Source: a virus. Taken from it: a stretch of DNA of 64,000 nt. The DNA is taken from positions 1 to 64,000 of the IMG/VR virus record IMGVR_UViG_3300025898_000005; one strand, written 5' to 3'. How positions within the stretch are numbered: the first letter of the stretch is position 1; the number at the start of each line of letters is the position of its first letter. Positions 3,669-10,893 of this stretch are shown in pieces. Position numbers and translations under genes: made by a program. Under the pieces are notes generated by a model. The model was not told the DNA's origin and ran no database searches. It saw nothing but the letters and a program-made list of their open reading frames with translations.

Positions 3669-5461
3669 ACTACTTCGATATCGGCACGGTAATGAACCGC
3701 CTCATTCTTTTGAAGACCCGGCTCCTGGTCACTGGCGGCAGCGGATCAGGAAAATCCTACCTTCTTCGAAAGATCATGGAAGAGAATAGCGGGCAGGTCC
3801 CCATGATCATCATGGACATCGAAGGGGAATTCGTCACCCTCCGGGAGGAATTCCCCTTCGCCCTGGTGGCGGTCAGTGACGGGGATCTTCCCCTTTCCGT
3901 CCAATACGCCGACATCCTGGCCCGGAAGATCATCGAAACCCGGCTTTCCGTTATCATCGATCTTTACGACCTCCTTTCCCACGAACGGGCCCAGTTTGTG
4001 GATAAGTTCCTGAAGGCACTGATGAACCTGCCGAAGACTTTATGGTTGGACACCCTGATCTTCATCGATGAAGCCCATTTATTTTGCCCCCAGACCGATA
4101 AGGCGCTGTCCGGGAACGCCGTCATTGATGTGATGACCCGGGGCCGGAAGCGGGGCCTTGCCGGCATCCTTTCCACCCAGCGACTGGCCAAGCTCCACAA
4201 GGATGCCGCCGCCGAATGCCAAAACAAGATGATCGGCAAAACCAGCCTGACGATGGATATGGAACGGTCTGCCGATGAACTGGGTCTGTCCCGTAAGGTC
4301 ATCGGCCCCATGCTGCGGGCCCTGCAACCTGGTCAATTCCTTGCCCATGGTCCTGCCTTCATCAATGAACTGGAACAGGAAACGGATGGGAAAATCGAAG
4401 TTACTCCCGTAAAGACCAGCCACGAAAAAAGGACCGGTGGGCAATCGATGCCGTCGACTCCCCCTTCTATTCGGGACATCCTGGCCAGCCTTCAGGACAT
4501 CCCCCAGGAAGCGGAAAAGGAATTGAAGACCGTTGAAGAACTACGGATTGAAGTTTCCAGTCTCCGGGAGCGGCTTAAAAAATGGGGCGCCGGAATCCCC
4601 CCGAATGATAAGGAAGCCGGCCTGATCACCCGATACCAGAACAATCTGGCGGCGATCAGCAAAGAACGGAACCGATATAAGGAGGACTGGCTCGTAACAC
4701 AGAAACAGTTGGTGGAATTGGCGGTGATCGTTGACAAACAGCGAAAGGTGATTATATCCATCCTGGATATTACCCGGGATCATCTGGGAGCGGAAAAAAG
4801 CAATGTTCACATTTATAACGGCAGTCCCGGCAATGTTTCCGATGCCGAATTTGAAAAATCCGTTGAATTCGAAATGCACCTGCAGGATGACGTTCATCCC
4901 GAACGCAATGGCAATTATCTGGCAAAGGAAACCAACCTGGGCCCCGGGAAGGCTCGGGTGGAATTGAAACCTATCGAAGGACCTGCCAAATTGGGCCGGT
5001 GTGAAAGGACCGTGCTTTCCTGGTTATCCGGGTTCGACCGCGCCTTCACAAAATACCAGATAGCCATGGCCACGGGATATTCCCAGACCTCCGGCGGTTT
5101 CAAGAATGCCCTGTCTATCCTGCGGACCGAACAATTGATCGAAGGCAAAGACCTGATCAAAGCCGTCAATGAAGATAAATTCGAAAATTATGGCATGATC
5201 CCGCTTATAAAAGGGAAAGTAACCGTCCATACCTACCGCAGCCGCCCGGGTCTTTGTGAACGGACTATCCTGGATTTCCTGGCCGATCATCCCAAAGTCC
5301 TTTACACTAAGGCAGAACTGGCTGAAATTACTGGTTATTCGGCTACTTCCGGGGGCTTTAAAAATGCCCTTTCAATATTGCATAGTCTGGAAATGGTTAA
5401 AAAGACAGCCATCGGCTTTGAAATTCATCCATCTTTGCCTATCAATAAAAAATCATCATGA
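3665..5461 (+). CDS. HerA/FtsK-like ATPase with tandem winged-helix tail
   Basis: A 598-aa protein. The N-terminal 240 residues form a P-loop ATPase: Walker A is GGSGSGKS at about 24-31, Walker B is TLIFIDEAHLF near 130, and a TRGRKRGLAGILSTQ segment follows that is typical of HerA-type hexameric DNA translocases. A coiled-coil region (about 280-370) follows. Two copies of a winged-helix-like unit end the protein, at about 446-498 and 530-582; each contains CERT(V/I)L and a GY-S-T-S-GGFKNALSIL motif. The protein probably pumps or remodels DNA, possibly with the nuclease at 1602. HerA in archaea and bacteria pairs with NurA-type nucleases, but no NurA was found here. Confidence 0.75.
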   Translation: MNYFDIGTVMNRLILLKTRLLVTGGSGSGKSYLLRKIMEENSGQVPMIIMDIEGEFVTLREEFPFALVAVSDGDLPLSVQYADILARKIIETRLSVIIDLYDLLSHERAQFVDKFLKALMNLPKTLWLDTLIFIDEAHLFCPQTDKALSGNAVIDVMTRGRKRGLAGILSTQRLAKLHKDAAAECQNKMIGKTSLTMDMERSADELGLSRKVIGPMLRALQPGQFLAHGPAFINELEQETDGKIEVTPVKTSHEKRTGGQSMPSTPPSIRDILASLQDIPQEAEKELKTVEELRIEVSSLRERLKKWGAGIPPNDKEAGLITRYQNNLAAISKERNRYKEDWLVTQKQLVELAVIVDKQRKVIISILDITRDHLGAEKSNVHIYNGSPGNVSDAEFEKSVEFEMHLQDDVHPERNGNYLAKETNLGPGKARVELKPIEGPAKLGRCERTVLSWLSGFDRAFTKYQIAMATGYSQTSGGFKNALSILRTEQLIEGKDLIKAVNEDKFENYGMIPLIKGKVTVHTYRSRPGLCERTILDFLADHPKVLYTKAELAEITGYSATSGGFKNALSILHSLEMVKKTAIGFEIHPSLPINKKSS

Positions 5462-6684
5462 AAACGAAAATTATCCTTTACCTCTTCTACAGCGTATTGG
5501 CCTTTCATTCATCCAATACCTTATATGTGACAGCCTTCGGAGCTACCGGCAACGGGATCACCGATGACACCAACGCCATCAATACCGCCCTGGCGGCCGC
5601 CGCCTCCCAGCAGAAAACCTTGGTCTTCCCGGCAGGTACCTACCTTTGCAACAAGGTGGATGGGTCCGGAAATATCCTTTCCTTCGCAGCTGGTGGCCTG
5701 ACCAGTCCCGCGATCGTCGGCCAGAACGCCATCATAAAAACCACTAAGGATTCTGCCTGCACCCAGCTTTATATCTACGCCTTTTCGGGCTGCAGCGGAC
5801 TGGCAATCAGTGGTATCTTCTTCCAGAATACCCACGGCAAGATCACGGGAATAACGGATGCCATCTTTATGACAGGGACTGGCGGCCAGTTGCTGACCAA
5901 CGTATATGTCCAAAACTGCCGCTTTGAAGGATTTAGTCAGGCAGTCGCTGGGCAGGGTATTACTGGATGGTATATTCAGAATAATACTTTCGGCGCCCCC
6001 CAGGGACATGATAACGGCCAGCAAACCACTGATCCCTGCGTTGGCATCTGGCTTTTCGATAATAGTAACGGAGTCTGCCGTTCAGTCTTCATCCAACGAA
6101 ACAAGGCCAGCGGATATACGGGCACCTTTCCAATGGCCTGCAAAAGACCGCTGGATGGCTTTGTCTATGGCAGCGGCTACGGCCTTCACATCGATCATAA
6201 TCAGACCGATTATTATTCCGAAGAGCATTTCATGATCAACCCCCAGACCGCGGCTACCGATTCCGTCACCAATATTTCCAATAATGAAATAAATTGCCGC
6301 CTGCCTGCGGGATCCCAGAATGACGACAATTCCCCGCATGTCATCAACTACGGCATCCGGGCGGATGTTTCCAATGCCTATATCGGCGGCAACAACATCA
6401 CCAGTTATACCTATGGCATCATGTTCCGCGGCATCGATTACCCCACCACCACTTTCACCAACCTGGAATATGATGGAAACCAGTTGTATGCTCCCACCGA
6501 CACGGTGGCATATTCCATTCAAAAGGCCATTACCATCACTGGCAGCACAGGCCACCCTGTAACGGGAATAAAGGTCCACGGTACAACCACCCGGTTTATT
6601 GATGCCCAGCCCATTGAACTGATCAATACGACCGGTGCCCAATCCTTCAGTAATAATTTCTATCCTTTCAATTTCATACAGTAA
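5458..6684 (+). CDS. Secreted right-handed beta-helix (pectate-lyase-like) protein
   Basis: A 408-aa protein starting in the ATPase stop (ATGA). A Sec signal peptide (MKTKIILYLFYSVLAFHSSN) leads into TAFGATGNGITDDTNAINTA, the standard opening of the pectate-lyase superfamily beta-helix used in phage tailspikes. Repeated rungs such as ISGIFFQN, YVQNCRFEGF, YIQNNTFG and ISNNEINC follow. It could be a polysaccharide depolymerase or tailspike. Its site among replication genes, far from the fibre region, and its export signal are odd and suggest an envelope or secreted role. The catalytic residues cannot be fixed by eye. Confidence 0.7.
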   Translation: MKTKIILYLFYSVLAFHSSNTLYVTAFGATGNGITDDTNAINTALAAAASQQKTLVFPAGTYLCNKVDGSGNILSFAAGGLTSPAIVGQNAIIKTTKDSACTQLYIYAFSGCSGLAISGIFFQNTHGKITGITDAIFMTGTGGQLLTNVYVQNCRFEGFSQAVAGQGITGWYIQNNTFGAPQGHDNGQQTTDPCVGIWLFDNSNGVCRSVFIQRNKASGYTGTFPMACKRPLDGFVYGSGYGLHIDHNQTDYYSEEHFMINPQTAATDSVTNISNNEINCRLPAGSQNDDNSPHVINYGIRADVSNAYIGGNNITSYTYGIMFRGIDYPTTTFTNLEYDGNQLYAPTDTVAYSIQKAITITGSTGHPVTGIKVHGTTTRFIDAQPIELINTTGAQSFSNNFYPFNFIQ

Positions 6685-6703
6685 TCAATTAAAAACCAAT
6701 CAT

Positions 6704-7675
6704 ATGTACGACAAATTAGATTACAAATCACAGAAAACATTCGCGGCGACCGGAAACAAAAATGGTCCCGCTTCAGATTTTGTATTCCCTTCCGAAGGGG
6801 CGGGCGATGAAGTTCTTCTTCTTCACAGAATTGTAAACTGCTGGGGAAATGCCTTATATCCGCTTCCCACGATGGTCGAATGGCTTACCGATTATGCGGC
6901 AAATTCCCAGACCGATGTGGAAAACTTCACCATTTCCATCATGCGGAAGCGGCTAAAGGAATTAAATGAAGCAAATCGCCATCTACGCCAGCAGAAAGAA
7001 GTTCTGATCCAGGAAAAGAATCATTGTGAAAAAATGCACAAGCTGGCCCTGGATAAGATAGAAGAGATCACCGAAGAACGGGATGCCGCCAGGGCGGACG
7101 TAAAAGCCTGGGAAGATAACTGGAACCGTGACAATGGAGCGCCGGACAATACCCGTGCGGTCATTAAAAACCTTCGTAATTCCATCAATGAGATAAAGGA
7201 CCGGCTGGCTTTATTGGAAAAAAAGCCGGTCGCCATAGTACAGATGGAAAAAATCCGTGACATTCAGCAGGAATCTTTCCTGGGCGCCGCCCAGCGCCAC
7301 CAAGCTGAAGAAGAAAAGCGGGAAGGACCCAACCTGGATTATCGGAGTCTCTACCACCAAGGCGTTCAGGATCTTTACATTTCAAAAAGCCTGCTGACCC
7401 AGTTGACGGAATCCAATGCTGCAGTCAGGAAAGGACTGGCTGAAGAAAAATTGATCAATTCCCGATATAATGCCAGAATTTCCAAATTGGAGGCAATTAT
7501 TTCGGAATTGGGATATGCCGCCGGTCTGCCATCCCCCGCTGCACAGATAATGACTTCCGACAGTATTGTGGAATTTCTTTTGCAAACCCTAAATAAATTA
7601 GCCCATGATGCTGGAAAAACTTCAAACACTGGAACGGCTGACGGAACGCGATCGGTTGATCCTGGAAAGGCATAG
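6704..7675 (+). CDS. Coiled-coil protein, unknown
   Basis: A 323-aa protein; the start is taken at ATG 6704 (aaaaccaatcatATGTACG), because the earlier ATG at 6635 lies in the previous gene. Residues 85-190 form a long charged coiled coil (LKELNEANRHLRQQKEVLI and similar). A second helical part, about 225-300, ends in a Ser/Thr/Gly-rich tail. No enzymatic motif is visible. It could be a scaffold or an adaptor. It overlaps the next small gene by 71 nt. Confidence 0.55.
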   Translation: MYDKLDYKSQKTFAATGNKNGPASDFVFPSEGAGDEVLLLHRIVNCWGNALYPLPTMVEWLTDYAANSQTDVENFTISIMRKRLKELNEANRHLRQQKEVLIQEKNHCEKMHKLALDKIEEITEERDAARADVKAWEDNWNRDNGAPDNTRAVIKNLRNSINEIKDRLALLEKKPVAIVQMEKIRDIQQESFLGAAQRHQAEEEKREGPNLDYRSLYHQGVQDLYISKSLLTQLTESNAAVRKGLAEEKLINSRYNARISKLEAIISELGYAAGLPSPAAQIMTSDSIVEFLLQTLNKLAHDAGKTSNTGTADGTRSVDPGKA

Positions 7676-7787
7676 GCTTATTGAAGAGCATCGGCAGGCC
7701 CTGATCTGCGAACAGGCCAAGATAAAACCCGGCGAACGCCCCCTGATCGTCACCATCGGCAACAAAGCATTTTTTAACTTCTTTTAA
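7605..7787 (+). CDS. Small helical protein
   Basis: A 60-aa protein overlapping the preceding gene by 71 nt in another frame. It is made of an amphipathic charged helix (EKLQTLERLTERDRLILERH) and a short beta-like C-terminal end (LIVTIGNKAFFNFF). It is placed directly before the lipoprotein gene with a 9-nt gap. It could be real, but dual coding with the end of the coiled-coil gene lowers confidence. Confidence 0.4.
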   Translation: MMLEKLQTLERLTERDRLILERHRLIEEHRQALICEQAKIKPGERPLIVTIGNKAFFNFF

Positions 7788-7796
7788 ATCAACTAA

Positions 7797-8120
7797 ATGA
7801 AAAAGATCATCCCGCTGCTGATCATCGCCTGCCTGGGTGCCTGCAAACGCCCACTAACCAATCATCAGCTATTTTGGAAATATCAGGACAGCACTAATAA
7901 ATATATGGCGCTGCAGATTGACATGCAGTGTTTTGAAATCGATGCCGTCATAGCCAATAAGCGGGATGATTATTTTTATTATGATCGGATGGCAACGATG
8001 GCAGGAGAAGAAGCAACCAGATATCAGGACAGCGTGGATAAATACTTCCAGGCTTTCGAACGAGATCAGGCGGCAACCTATCTACAACAACGCGCATTTT
8101 CTCACCAAAAACCAAAATAA
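7797..8120 (+). CDS. Small lipoprotein
   Basis: A 107-aa protein. The N-terminus MKKIIPLLIIACLGACKRP is a lipoprotein signal peptide with a lipobox ending at Cys16. The mature part is charged and helical, with Tyr- and Gln-rich segments, and is predicted to be periplasmic. Known roles of phage lipoproteins include superinfection exclusion, receptor blocking and outer spanins; none can be chosen here. It abuts the Acb2-like gene with no gap, so the two are probably co-translated. Confidence 0.6.
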   Translation: MKKIIPLLIIACLGACKRPLTNHQLFWKYQDSTNKYMALQIDMQCFEIDAVIANKRDDYFYYDRMATMAGEEATRYQDSVDKYFQAFERDQAATYLQQRAFSHQKPK

Positions 8121-8366
8121 ATGAAAGAAGAGAGCCCAGCCCCATTAACAGCAGCCGGCAAGGAATACAATTCCGAAGGCGAACGCCGCGTGCGCATCCA
8201 TTTCAATGTCGGGGGCGACAGCATCGTGGACGCGATCAAACAGAAAACAGCCGAATTGATCAATCTATCCCTTTCCCTCAAAGACAAAGATCCACGGGCA
8301 GCAGCGGAAGCCGCTACTTGTTATGAGACCGCCGGCATGTATGCCGTGAAAGCAGCAACGGCGTAA
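8121..8366 (+). CDS. Acb2/Tad1-like cyclic-nucleotide sponge candidate (anti-CBASS)
   Basis: An 81-aa protein immediately after the lipoprotein gene and the last one before a terminator. After a disordered N-terminus there is a strand (RVRIHFNV), then two helices, SIVDAIKQKTAELINLS and DPRAAAEAATCYETAGMYAVKAATA. This helical hairpin, with the DPR...A...YE.A.M.AVKAAT pattern, is how I recognise the Acb2/Tad1 family. Its members are small phage proteins that bind cyclic oligonucleotide signals and so block CBASS and, in some cases, Thoeris defence. Size and position as a small accessory gene agree. Binding residues cannot be proven by eye, and some family members have no tested activity. Confidence 0.6.
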   Translation: MKEESPAPLTAAGKEYNSEGERRVRIHFNVGGDSIVDAIKQKTAELINLSLSLKDKDPRAAAEAATCYETAGMYAVKAATA

Positions 8367-8398
8367 GAGTTTACCAAAAGTAAAGGTGGCGCACCTGC

Positions 8399-8422
8399 AA
8401 AACCCCCGTAACTGGGGGTTTT
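8399..8422 (+). terminator. Rho-independent terminator
   Basis: The stem AACCCCC/GGGGGTT has a GTAACT loop and runs into TTTT. It closes the replication and early operon before the packaging genes. Confidence 0.75.
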
Positions 8423-8434
8423 CTCATTTATGTG

Positions 8435-8442
8435 TACATTTA
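8435..8442 (+). promoter_or_regulatory. Possible -7 promoter element
   Basis: TACATTTA resembles the Bacteroidota -7 box TAnnTTTG with the last base changed. It lies just after the terminator and 37 nt before the start of the packaging operon. No -33 TTTG is found at the expected spacing. Confidence 0.3.
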
Positions 8443-8478
8443 TCCTATAAAAGGCCCCTAAAAACCCTTTTCACTGCT

Positions 8479-8991
8479 ATGAACATGATAAAATTGTCCA
8501 CCCTTAAACCATTGGGCGACAAAAACCCCCGGATCATCAAAGATCCAAAGTTCGAAGCCCTCAAACGCTCCATCCAGGATTTTCCCCAGATGATGGAATT
8601 GCGCCCCATGGTCATCGATAAGACCAATATCATCATCGCCGGCAATATGAAATACCGCGTCCTGCTGGCATTGAAGTACGAAGAGGTTCCAGCTTCCTGG
8701 GTAAAAAAGGCCCACAACCTGACCGAAGAACAGCGCGACCGGTTCATCATCGTGGATAACGACCATTCCGGCGAATGGGATTACGATGCCCTGGCCAACG
8801 GATGGGACAGCACCCTGCTGACAGATTGGGGTCTATCCATCCCCGATTTCAATGAAGAAAGGACTGTCACTTTCAATGCCCGCAAGATCAAAAAGGGCTG
8901 TCTGGTCAAAGTAATATGTGACACCACCGACCAGGCCGATCTACTTTGTGAACGCCTTATTAAAGAAGGACATCAGGTGGAGATAAAATAA
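8479..8991 (+). CDS. ParB-like nuclease-domain protein
   Basis: A 170-aa protein; ATG 8479 is chosen over 8386, which lies within the terminator hairpin. The N-terminus NPRIIKDPKFEALKRSI, then a hydrophobic core LRPMVIDKTNIIIAGNMKYR and the helical NLTEEQRDRFIIVDN, match the ParB/Sulfiredoxin-type N-terminal domain. This domain is common in phages next to terminase or methyltransferase genes. The family binds DNA or hydrolyses CTP in true ParB; the phage versions have uncertain roles in packaging-site recognition or modification. It is the first gene of the packaging operon. Confidence 0.7.
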   Translation: MNMIKLSTLKPLGDKNPRIIKDPKFEALKRSIQDFPQMMELRPMVIDKTNIIIAGNMKYRVLLALKYEEVPASWVKKAHNLTEEQRDRFIIVDNDHSGEWDYDALANGWDSTLLTDWGLSIPDFNEERTVTFNARKIKKGCLVKVICDTTDQADLLCERLIKEGHQVEIK

Positions 8992-9035
8992 GTATTAGTA
9001 ATCAATTAGTTATAAAATGGTAATTTGATAATTTT

Positions 9036-9416
9036 ATGGAAGAAGAAAATAATTCGCCCGAAATCCCAAAAGACAAACGCCTGCAGAATTTACGACCTGC
9101 CCGCCCTGGTGAGGTACGCAACCCGAATGGTCGGCCGAAAGGCAGCATGAATCTGAAGACCGTCTTCAATAAATTCCTGAAGATAAAGGAGCCGACAACC
9201 AACCCGATCACAAAGCGGGCCTGCAACTTATCCCAGATTGAGATCATGGCCCTGGCGATGATAAAGGAAGCCAGGAATGGGAACGTGCAGGCTTTCAATG
9301 CCATCGCCGACCGCTTGGAAGGCAAGCCGGAGCAAAAACAGATCAATGCCTTTGAGGAAGGAACAGAGATATCCGTAACCATCGGTAAGCCGCGGGACAT
9401 GCAGCAAGATGCCTAA
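9036..9416 (+). CDS. Terminase small subunit-like protein (DUF5681 type)
   Basis: A 126-aa protein overlapping TerL by 8 nt. It contains the motif RPARPGEVRNPNGRPKGS (about residues 20-37), characteristic of DUF5681 proteins found directly upstream of phage large terminases. A helical region follows (LSQIEIMALAMIKEARNGN) with a short acidic tail. The predicted role is recognition of the packaging site on phage DNA and handing it to TerL. The assignment rests on the motif and on position. Confidence 0.75.
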   Translation: MEEENNSPEIPKDKRLQNLRPARPGEVRNPNGRPKGSMNLKTVFNKFLKIKEPTTNPITKRACNLSQIEIMALAMIKEARNGNVQAFNAIADRLEGKPEQKQINAFEEGTEISVTIGKPRDMQQDA

Positions 9417-10893
9417 GATCAATGTCGATATTGACCCCGATAATTTCCTACCCGTTTATCAGCCCACCATCGGCAGTACAAACGACATTGAATTTCTATA
9501 TGGTTCCCGGGACAGCGGCAAATCCCGCCACATCGCCCAGATCCTGGTCACCATCTGCCTGGCACTGCCGAAGTTCAAGTGCCCGCTTATCAGGAAGGTG
9601 CAGAACACCGTGAAGGATAGCCAGTGGACCATGATCAAAGAAGTGGTGGAGGAATGGAAACTGGATCACCTGTTCAAGTTCACTACGAGCCCGCTGGAAA
9701 TAAAATGTAAATCGGGCGGCGTATTCCTGGCCCGGGGGCTGGATGATGCCAAAAAGATAAAATCCCTGACCAACCCCAGCCATGCCTGGATAGAAGAGGG
9801 CGCCGACATTACCAGCGATGACTGGACCATCATCACCACTTCCCTGCGGTCGAACCATTACAAGACCCAGATATGGTTCAGTTTCAACCCGGATATACCT
9901 GGCATCTATGAAGATTTCTGGCTTTACCAGCGGTATTTTGCCCATCATAAGGAATTGACCTTTACCGATAAGATCACCGAAACCTTGCAGGATGGTGAAG
10001 AAGTAAACATCACCTACCGGGCGACACACAGTACTTTTTATGATAACCGATATTGCCCGGGAACACGGAAAGCCTATTACGAAGGACTTGCTAAAACGTC
10101 TGAATATGAACATCGTGTATACTGTCTTGGCCTCTGGGGGGTCCGAAAGACCGGCGGGGAATTCCTCAAAAGGTTCCAGTCGAACATCCATGTCAATCGC
10201 CGGCTGCAGTACAATCCTATGTTTCCCCTGTTTTTTTCGCTGGATAACAACGTCTACCCCTATTGTGCGGTGGGAGTATGGCAACTGATCCCCGAAGAAA
10301 TTGATGGGGGAACGATATGGTTTGCCCGACAGATAGCGGAACTGCCAGCGGTGGATCCTGATAACAGTGCGGCCGGGGCGGCAAAACTGATCATCAAATA
10401 CCTGCACCAGCTCAAATACTACGAAATGACCGTCCATATCTGTGGGGACCGGTCCACAAAGAACCAATCCACCATTGATCCGCTGAAAAGATCCTTCTTC
10501 CAGATCGTCAACGAAGCCGTCACTTCCGCTGACTTCCGTACAAAGGATTGCTTCCTGGCCTATTCACCGGCGCCGCCAGGGATAGCCGACTTCGCAAATG
10601 CCATCTTCAATAATGAGATTCCCGGCCTGCAGATAGAAATCGGTAATTGCCCGGAATCCATAAAGGACTATATCATCACGAAGGCCGACCGTAATGGTAA
10701 TATCCTGAAGATCAATAAGGCGGACTATGAGGGTGGCCCATCTTACCAGCACAATGGCCACTTCACCGATACGCTGAAGGATATGATCGTGCAGGCCTTC
10801 TATGATCAGTACATTGCCTATACCAACCGGCATAAAACCATCCAGCCAGGGGGTGTCTCTAAAGTGAATCGCGTTTCAAATATTACCGGATAA
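9409..10893 (+). CDS. terL: Terminase large subunit
   Basis: A 494-aa protein of normal TerL length. The ATPase domain has Walker A GSRDSGKS near 32-39 and Walker B-like HAWIEEGAD near 126. The nuclease domain shows candidate acidic residues in FFSLDNNVYPY, HICGDRST and HFTDTLKDMIV, the usual RNase-H-like arrangement. This places it in the Terminase_3/PBSX-like group. It powers DNA translocation into the prohead and cuts the concatemer. It overlaps the small subunit and is followed after 25 nt by the head-completion and portal genes. Confidence 0.92.
   Translation: MPKINVDIDPDNFLPVYQPTIGSTNDIEFLYGSRDSGKSRHIAQILVTICLALPKFKCPLIRKVQNTVKDSQWTMIKEVVEEWKLDHLFKFTTSPLEIKCKSGGVFLARGLDDAKKIKSLTNPSHAWIEEGADITSDDWTIITTSLRSNHYKTQIWFSFNPDIPGIYEDFWLYQRYFAHHKELTFTDKITETLQDGEEVNITYRATHSTFYDNRYCPGTRKAYYEGLAKTSEYEHRVYCLGLWGVRKTGGEFLKRFQSNIHVNRRLQYNPMFPLFFSLDNNVYPYCAVGVWQLIPEEIDGGTIWFARQIAELPAVDPDNSAAGAAKLIIKYLHQLKYYEMTVHICGDRSTKNQSTIDPLKRSFFQIVNEAVTSADFRTKDCFLAYSPAPPGIADFANAIFNNEIPGLQIEIGNCPESIKDYIITKADRNGNILKINKADYEGGPSYQHNGHFTDTLKDMIVQAFYDQYIAYTNRHKTIQPGGVSKVNRVSNITG

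Follow-up and report, generated by a model that had tools for sequence, protein, structure and literature searches.

Does the short gene at positions 8121-8366 of a viral contig encode a sponge for the cyclic oligonucleotides of bacterial defence, and if so, of which kind? The question reaches beyond a single locus, as sponge proteins reveal which alarm molecules phages must face. The window analysed here is a stretch of 64,000 nucleotides (positions 1 to 64,000) of the IMG/VR record IMGVR_UViG_3300025898_000005, which as a whole is a virus contig of 64,123 bases. A preliminary description of the window, drawn up from its letters, had placed the product of the gene in the Acb2/Tad1 group of anti-defence proteins.

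The gene and its relatives

The open reading frame lies on the plus strand (8121-8366) and is intact, with 81 codons, an ATG start and a TAA stop. It is a real gene rather than a chance frame, because one scan found relatives of the 81-amino acid protein, at 41-66% identity, on 32 viral contigs, and a scan queried with the family alignment found them on 139. The pattern DPR...YE.A.M.AVKAAT, on which the preliminary description relied, is found at residues 57-80, and across 80 aligned relatives R59, E69, K77 and T80 of the window protein are invariant, while F28, N29 and K40 likewise do not vary. An N-terminal motif, GERRVRIHFNV (residues 20-30; 8178-8210, plus strand), has the family form GExRVRxxFNP. 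It is followed on the same strand by two helices of the AlphaFold2 model described below, helix 1 (residues 35-51; 8223-8273), which contains IKQKTAELI, and helix 2 (residues 58-80; 8292-8360).

Membership in the Acb2/Tad1 hairpin family

Against the Pfam model Acb2_Tad1_hairpin (PF24729), the window protein scores 26.9 bits (E 5.5e-6), which is 0.1 bit under the curated cut-off of 27 bits. The model matches each of the 29 proteins in the family alignment of the window protein, the best with E 2e-15, and relatives reach up to 57 bits, compared with about 14 bits for the next family. When whole records were searched as genomes, PF24729 exceeded its cut-off in 16 of 16 records and in none of 14 control genomes. 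For comparison, the established sponges PaP2 Acb2 and T4 Vs.4 score 66 bits (3.2e-18) and 71 bits (7.1e-20), respectively.

A test independent of Pfam compared, in hhalign, a profile of 81 unique relatives with two others, one built from 67 sequences of the PaP2 family and one from 31 of the Vs.4 family, the PaP2 protein used being the chain of the solved Acb2 structure 8h2j. The score was 39.2 (probability 92) for the PaP2 family and 30.2 (probability 75) for the Vs.4 family. The maxima over 60 column shuffles were 19.4 and 16.7, and reversing the profile gave 14.8 and 13.5, respectively. It could be argued that two short amphipathic helical hairpins resemble each other by chance, as such hairpins are common and the window protein itself falls marginally short of the Pfam cut-off. 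Yet the scores of the relatives, the shuffled and reversed profiles, which never came near the observed values, and the silent control genomes make a chance likeness hardly credible.

Direct sequence searches were less informative. No family for the window protein was found in PHROGs or NCBIfam, and a PDB sequence search with the window protein alone returned chance matches only. With the family profile as query, the PDB search listed the Acb2 homologue 9ptq (E 0.28) and Vs.4 (E 0.59), which is suggestive only. Low identity is, however, normal in the Acb2 family, since PaP2 Acb2 and Vs.4 match each other only at E 0.03 in a single-sequence search. Judged by its profiles, the window protein belongs to the Acb2/Tad1 hairpin superfamily as one of its divergent members, and the family assignment of the preliminary description holds in substance.

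The family as such has been recognized before. Acb2 genes are already annotated in new phages, e.g., Microbacterium phage Statler (PMC13348362), viral relatives of the window protein are already named Acb2/Tad1 in UniProt, and the PDB chain 9ptq carries the name 'Acb2 homolog 43'. What is added here is a distinct and well-populated branch with its own signature within this known family.

Predicted structure and fold

An AlphaFold2 monomer model, built with a 29-sequence alignment, has a mean pLDDT of 86 and three helices (residues 19-24, 35-51 and 58-80), arranged as a short N-terminal helix, an extended segment and two antiparallel helices. The preliminary description had proposed a strand plus a two-helix hairpin; the model has the hairpin, but in place of the strand it shows a short helix (19-24) with an extended segment. 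As reviewed, the Acb2 protomer consists of a short N-terminal helix and two antiparallel helices (PMC12043709). The predicted layout of the window protomer is thus of the Acb2 type, without the N-terminal beta-sheet of Tad1. Only 34 residues precede helix 1 in the window protein and no strand of at least 3 residues is predicted, and Tad1 of Bacillus phage SBSphiJ7 aligns to PF24729 at profile positions 24-54 only. Membership in Tad1 was rejected, as the window protein lacks the beta-sheet domain. The suggestion that such proteins sometimes block Thoeris finds no support here in terms of gcADPR binding, since the N-terminal beta-sheet of Tad1 is absent.

Fold searches gave a mixed picture. Acb2 was not among the PDB matches to the window model in Foldseek or VIA-align, which returned generic helical proteins only. 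As a control, PaP2 Acb2 was modelled in the same way, and Foldseek on the PDB returned 8h2j and 7uq2; the miss therefore reflects a real difference of the window model, in which the first hairpin helix has 17 residues compared with 34 in the PaP2 control. In the viral predicted structures of BFVD, the top two Foldseek matches were Acb2/Tad1 hairpin proteins (probability 1.00, E 0.085). The PDB miss would suit a protein that inherited the hairpin fold by descent and has taken on another phage job, e.g., that of a small adaptor in the virion, in packaging or in regulation. This reading is weighed further with the gene neighbourhood, and the retention of the hexamer-interface residues and, partly by conservative exchange, of most pocket residues, described next, speaks against it.

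Residues of the hexamer interface and the nucleotide pocket

The window protein, Vs.4 and PaP2 Acb2 were brought to a common residue numbering by their positions in the PF24729 profile. Mutants of Vs.4 have shown that the stacking residues Y8 and F82 and the hexamer-interface residues L29, A66, A73 and A77 are needed, and in its structure the nucleotide (cGAMP) is contacted by Y8, H11, K23 and R79 (PMC10097602). In addition, the exchange T68M lowers affinity (PMC12657230). All four interface residues are identical in the window protein (L46, A64, A71 and A75), and each of them is kept in 77-79 of 80 relatives. T68 corresponds to an identical T66, and the cGAMP contact K23 to an identical K40. 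The nucleotide-stacking Y8, equivalent to Y11 of PaP2 Acb2, is aligned with F28 (PF24729 position 2), R79 is replaced by K77 and F82 by T80, and H11 falls in a gap. Of the pocket set Y8, H11, K23, R79 and F82, one residue is therefore identical, two are conservative and two are not kept. The threonine at position 80 is not disqualifying, because PaP2 Acb2, solved with 3',3'-cGAMP (8h2j), has A88 at the position of F82. Identity at critical sites (6/8) exceeds that elsewhere (7/30; p 0.011), which is suggestive only, and the enrichment weakens when the count takes in all reported residues that can be aligned (6/11 vs 7/27; p 0.096).

The pocket also bears on which signal would be bound. The invariant R59 of the window family aligns with R67 of PaP2 Acb2, a residue of the trinucleotide pocket, but with D61 of Vs.4. 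Together with the loss of the F82 stacking residue, the invariant N-terminal motif GExRVRxxFN, which is absent from canonical Acb2, and the resemblance of helix 2 to the TKLEEALMW segment of Tad1 of SBSphiJ7, this alignment would fit a sponge of the same fold that binds a signal other than the classical CBASS dinucleotides, such as cA3 (CBASS, type III CRISPR), the gcADPR type of Thoeris or another nucleotide. Several signals are indeed bound by sponges of the Acb2/Tad1 family (PMC12043709). Yet the dinucleotide-pocket equivalents of Y8 and K23 are kept as F and K, the beta-sheet domain of Tad1 is absent, and Tad1 aligns to profile positions 24-54 only, so that another signal appears rather unlikely.

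Operon and genomic neighbourhood

The gene was described as standing at the end of an operon beside a lipoprotein, and its surroundings fit this. Upstream lies a gene for a small predicted lipoprotein (7797-8120, plus strand) with a signal peptide and an LGAC lipobox but no Pfam match, whose stop codon directly precedes the ATG at 8121. Downstream, a terminator-like hairpin (8399-8422, plus strand) of 10 pairs and a loop of 4, followed by CTCATTTATG, a weak T run forming a short T-rich tail, would close the operon, terminator-like matches across the region being no more frequent than in shuffles. Beyond it follow a ParB-like gene, a DUF5681 gene and a gene for the terminase large subunit. The ParB-like open reading frame (8386-8991) is listed with a GTG start that overlaps the hairpin, and the ATG at 8479 is more likely to be its true start.

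The terminase large subunit gene only a few genes away could point to packaging, and thus to the adaptor role raised above by the fold search. In ~110 related loci, however, the tested window neighbours, including the terminase and ParB-like genes, did not recur beside the gene, with the exception of two isolated cases, and no constant partner emerged; a packaging or terminase partner as a constant association was rejected on this ground. Across 79 distinct loci, the neighbours spread over many PHROG families, the commonest of which was seen only three times, and ~84% of the genes adjacent to family members lie on the same strand. As the neighbouring genes change from phage to phage, the pattern is what a mobile accessory gene within phage operons would show. 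Taken with the retained interface residues and most of the pocket residues, a job other than binding nucleotides is improbable, and less probable than a change of signal.

Other features of the region may be recorded. An open reading frame of 408 amino acids (5458-6681) with a signal-peptide-like start lies just upstream of a coiled-coil gene and of the operon that contains the 81-amino acid gene; it is the likeliest source of a pectate-lyase-like (PF12708) match and possibly encodes a depolymerase. The gene set of the window (1-64000) as a whole includes matches to DNA methylase families (C5, N6/N4), RecT, SNF2 and glycosyltransferases, and with such methylase matches, modified DNA could add protection against host defence. 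A DNA search for phages resembling positions 6000-10000 of the window found none.

Distribution of the branch

The branch is present in 146 records of Flavobacterium phages, which are cultured phages, and among the entries listed the gene is annotated as 'hypothetical protein'. Members also occur in one phage recorded from Gammaproteobacteria, in a Parvularculaceae metagenome-assembled genome (MAG) and in an Arsenophonus plasmid, and the branch is thus not confined to Bacteroidota, although the preliminary description spoke of a Bacteroidota branch. Among 189 further genomes of the class of the Parvularculaceae MAG, one weak match was the only one. The MAG and one viral contig each have two PF24729 matches, both over the cut-off in the MAG, while the second in the viral contig is weak (18.6 bits).

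A clear member of the branch is gp60 of Flavobacterium columnare phage FCL-2 (YP_009142773.1; NC_027125.1, 41210-41437), annotated as hypothetical and scoring 51 bits against PF24729. Long co-evolution of FCL-2 with its host is documented. For one group of these phages, genome changes have been reported at 38,922-43,395 bp (PMC5524643). This stretch would include the gp60 gene, which does not imply a change in gp60 itself.

Proposed function

Conservation of the Vs.4 assembly residues and, partly by conservative exchange, of most nucleotide-contact positions, membership in the superfamily and the Acb2-like layout together support the view of the gene product as a nucleotide sponge of the Acb2 type, a reading to which we assign a probability of about three in four. 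By analogy, the window protein is most likely a candidate cyclic-oligonucleotide sponge that would blunt CBASS-like defence. As in characterised relatives, the small hairpin protomers would assemble into a hexamer, which would bind the cyclic oligonucleotides that host defence enzymes produce and leave them uncut, the enzymes being the CD-NTases of CBASS and possibly those of other cyclic-nucleotide signalling defences. With the signal sequestered, the effectors would stay inactive and the infected cell would not kill itself. In the papers searched, no functional data on this branch were found.

It could further be speculated that the branch, with its signature GExRVRxxFNP...KQKTAELI...YEEAAMWAVKAAT, forms a separate sponge lineage, the third after Acb2 and Tad1, in which the invariant N-terminal motif builds part of a distinct pocket and the ligand range differs from both, matched to the signals of Bacteroidota and other hosts, but we regard this as a long shot. 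The branch is widespread, as the 139 viral contigs of a single scan illustrate, and in cultured Flavobacterium phages, FCL-2 among them, it has gone unannotated. It thereby bears on the questions of whether cyclic-nucleotide defence plays a part in these hosts, and whether a single hairpin scaffold was retuned for other signals.

Comparison with known sponges

Among the characterised sponges, Acb2 of Pseudomonas phage PaP2 (p26; PDB 8h2j/8h2x) shares with the window protein a common Pfam profile over nearly the whole length and a short N-terminal segment followed by the hairpin. Both have an aromatic residue and then a lysine (Y11/K26 in PaP2 Acb2, F28/K40 in the window protein), an arginine at the R67/R59 position and a non-aromatic residue where Vs.4 has F82. 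PaP2 Acb2 differs in its longer first helix and in its KGYR N-terminal and RAxAQP C-terminal signatures, whereas the window branch has GExRVRxxFNP, KQKTAELI and AVKAATA. With T4 Vs.4 (Acb2; PDB 7uq2), the window protein shares identical equivalents of L29, A66, T68, A73, A77 and K23, and helix 2 of Vs.4 (EASMWACRA) resembles that of the window family (EEAAMWAVKA); it departs from Vs.4 by the replacements at F82 and R79, the gap at H11 and a short interhelical loop. Tad1 of SBSphiJ7 has a similar second hairpin helix (TKLEEALMW vs TxYEEAAMW in the window family) and falls under the same Pfam hairpin model, but is a protein of 142 amino acids with an N-terminal beta-sheet domain. The closest counterparts in cultured phages are FCL-2 gp60 and its elemovirus homologues, which belong to the branch of the window protein and carry the motif GEKRVKAEFNP, while gp60 differs in a longer loop and in a C-terminus, KANFTE, that puts a phenylalanine near the F82 position of Vs.4.
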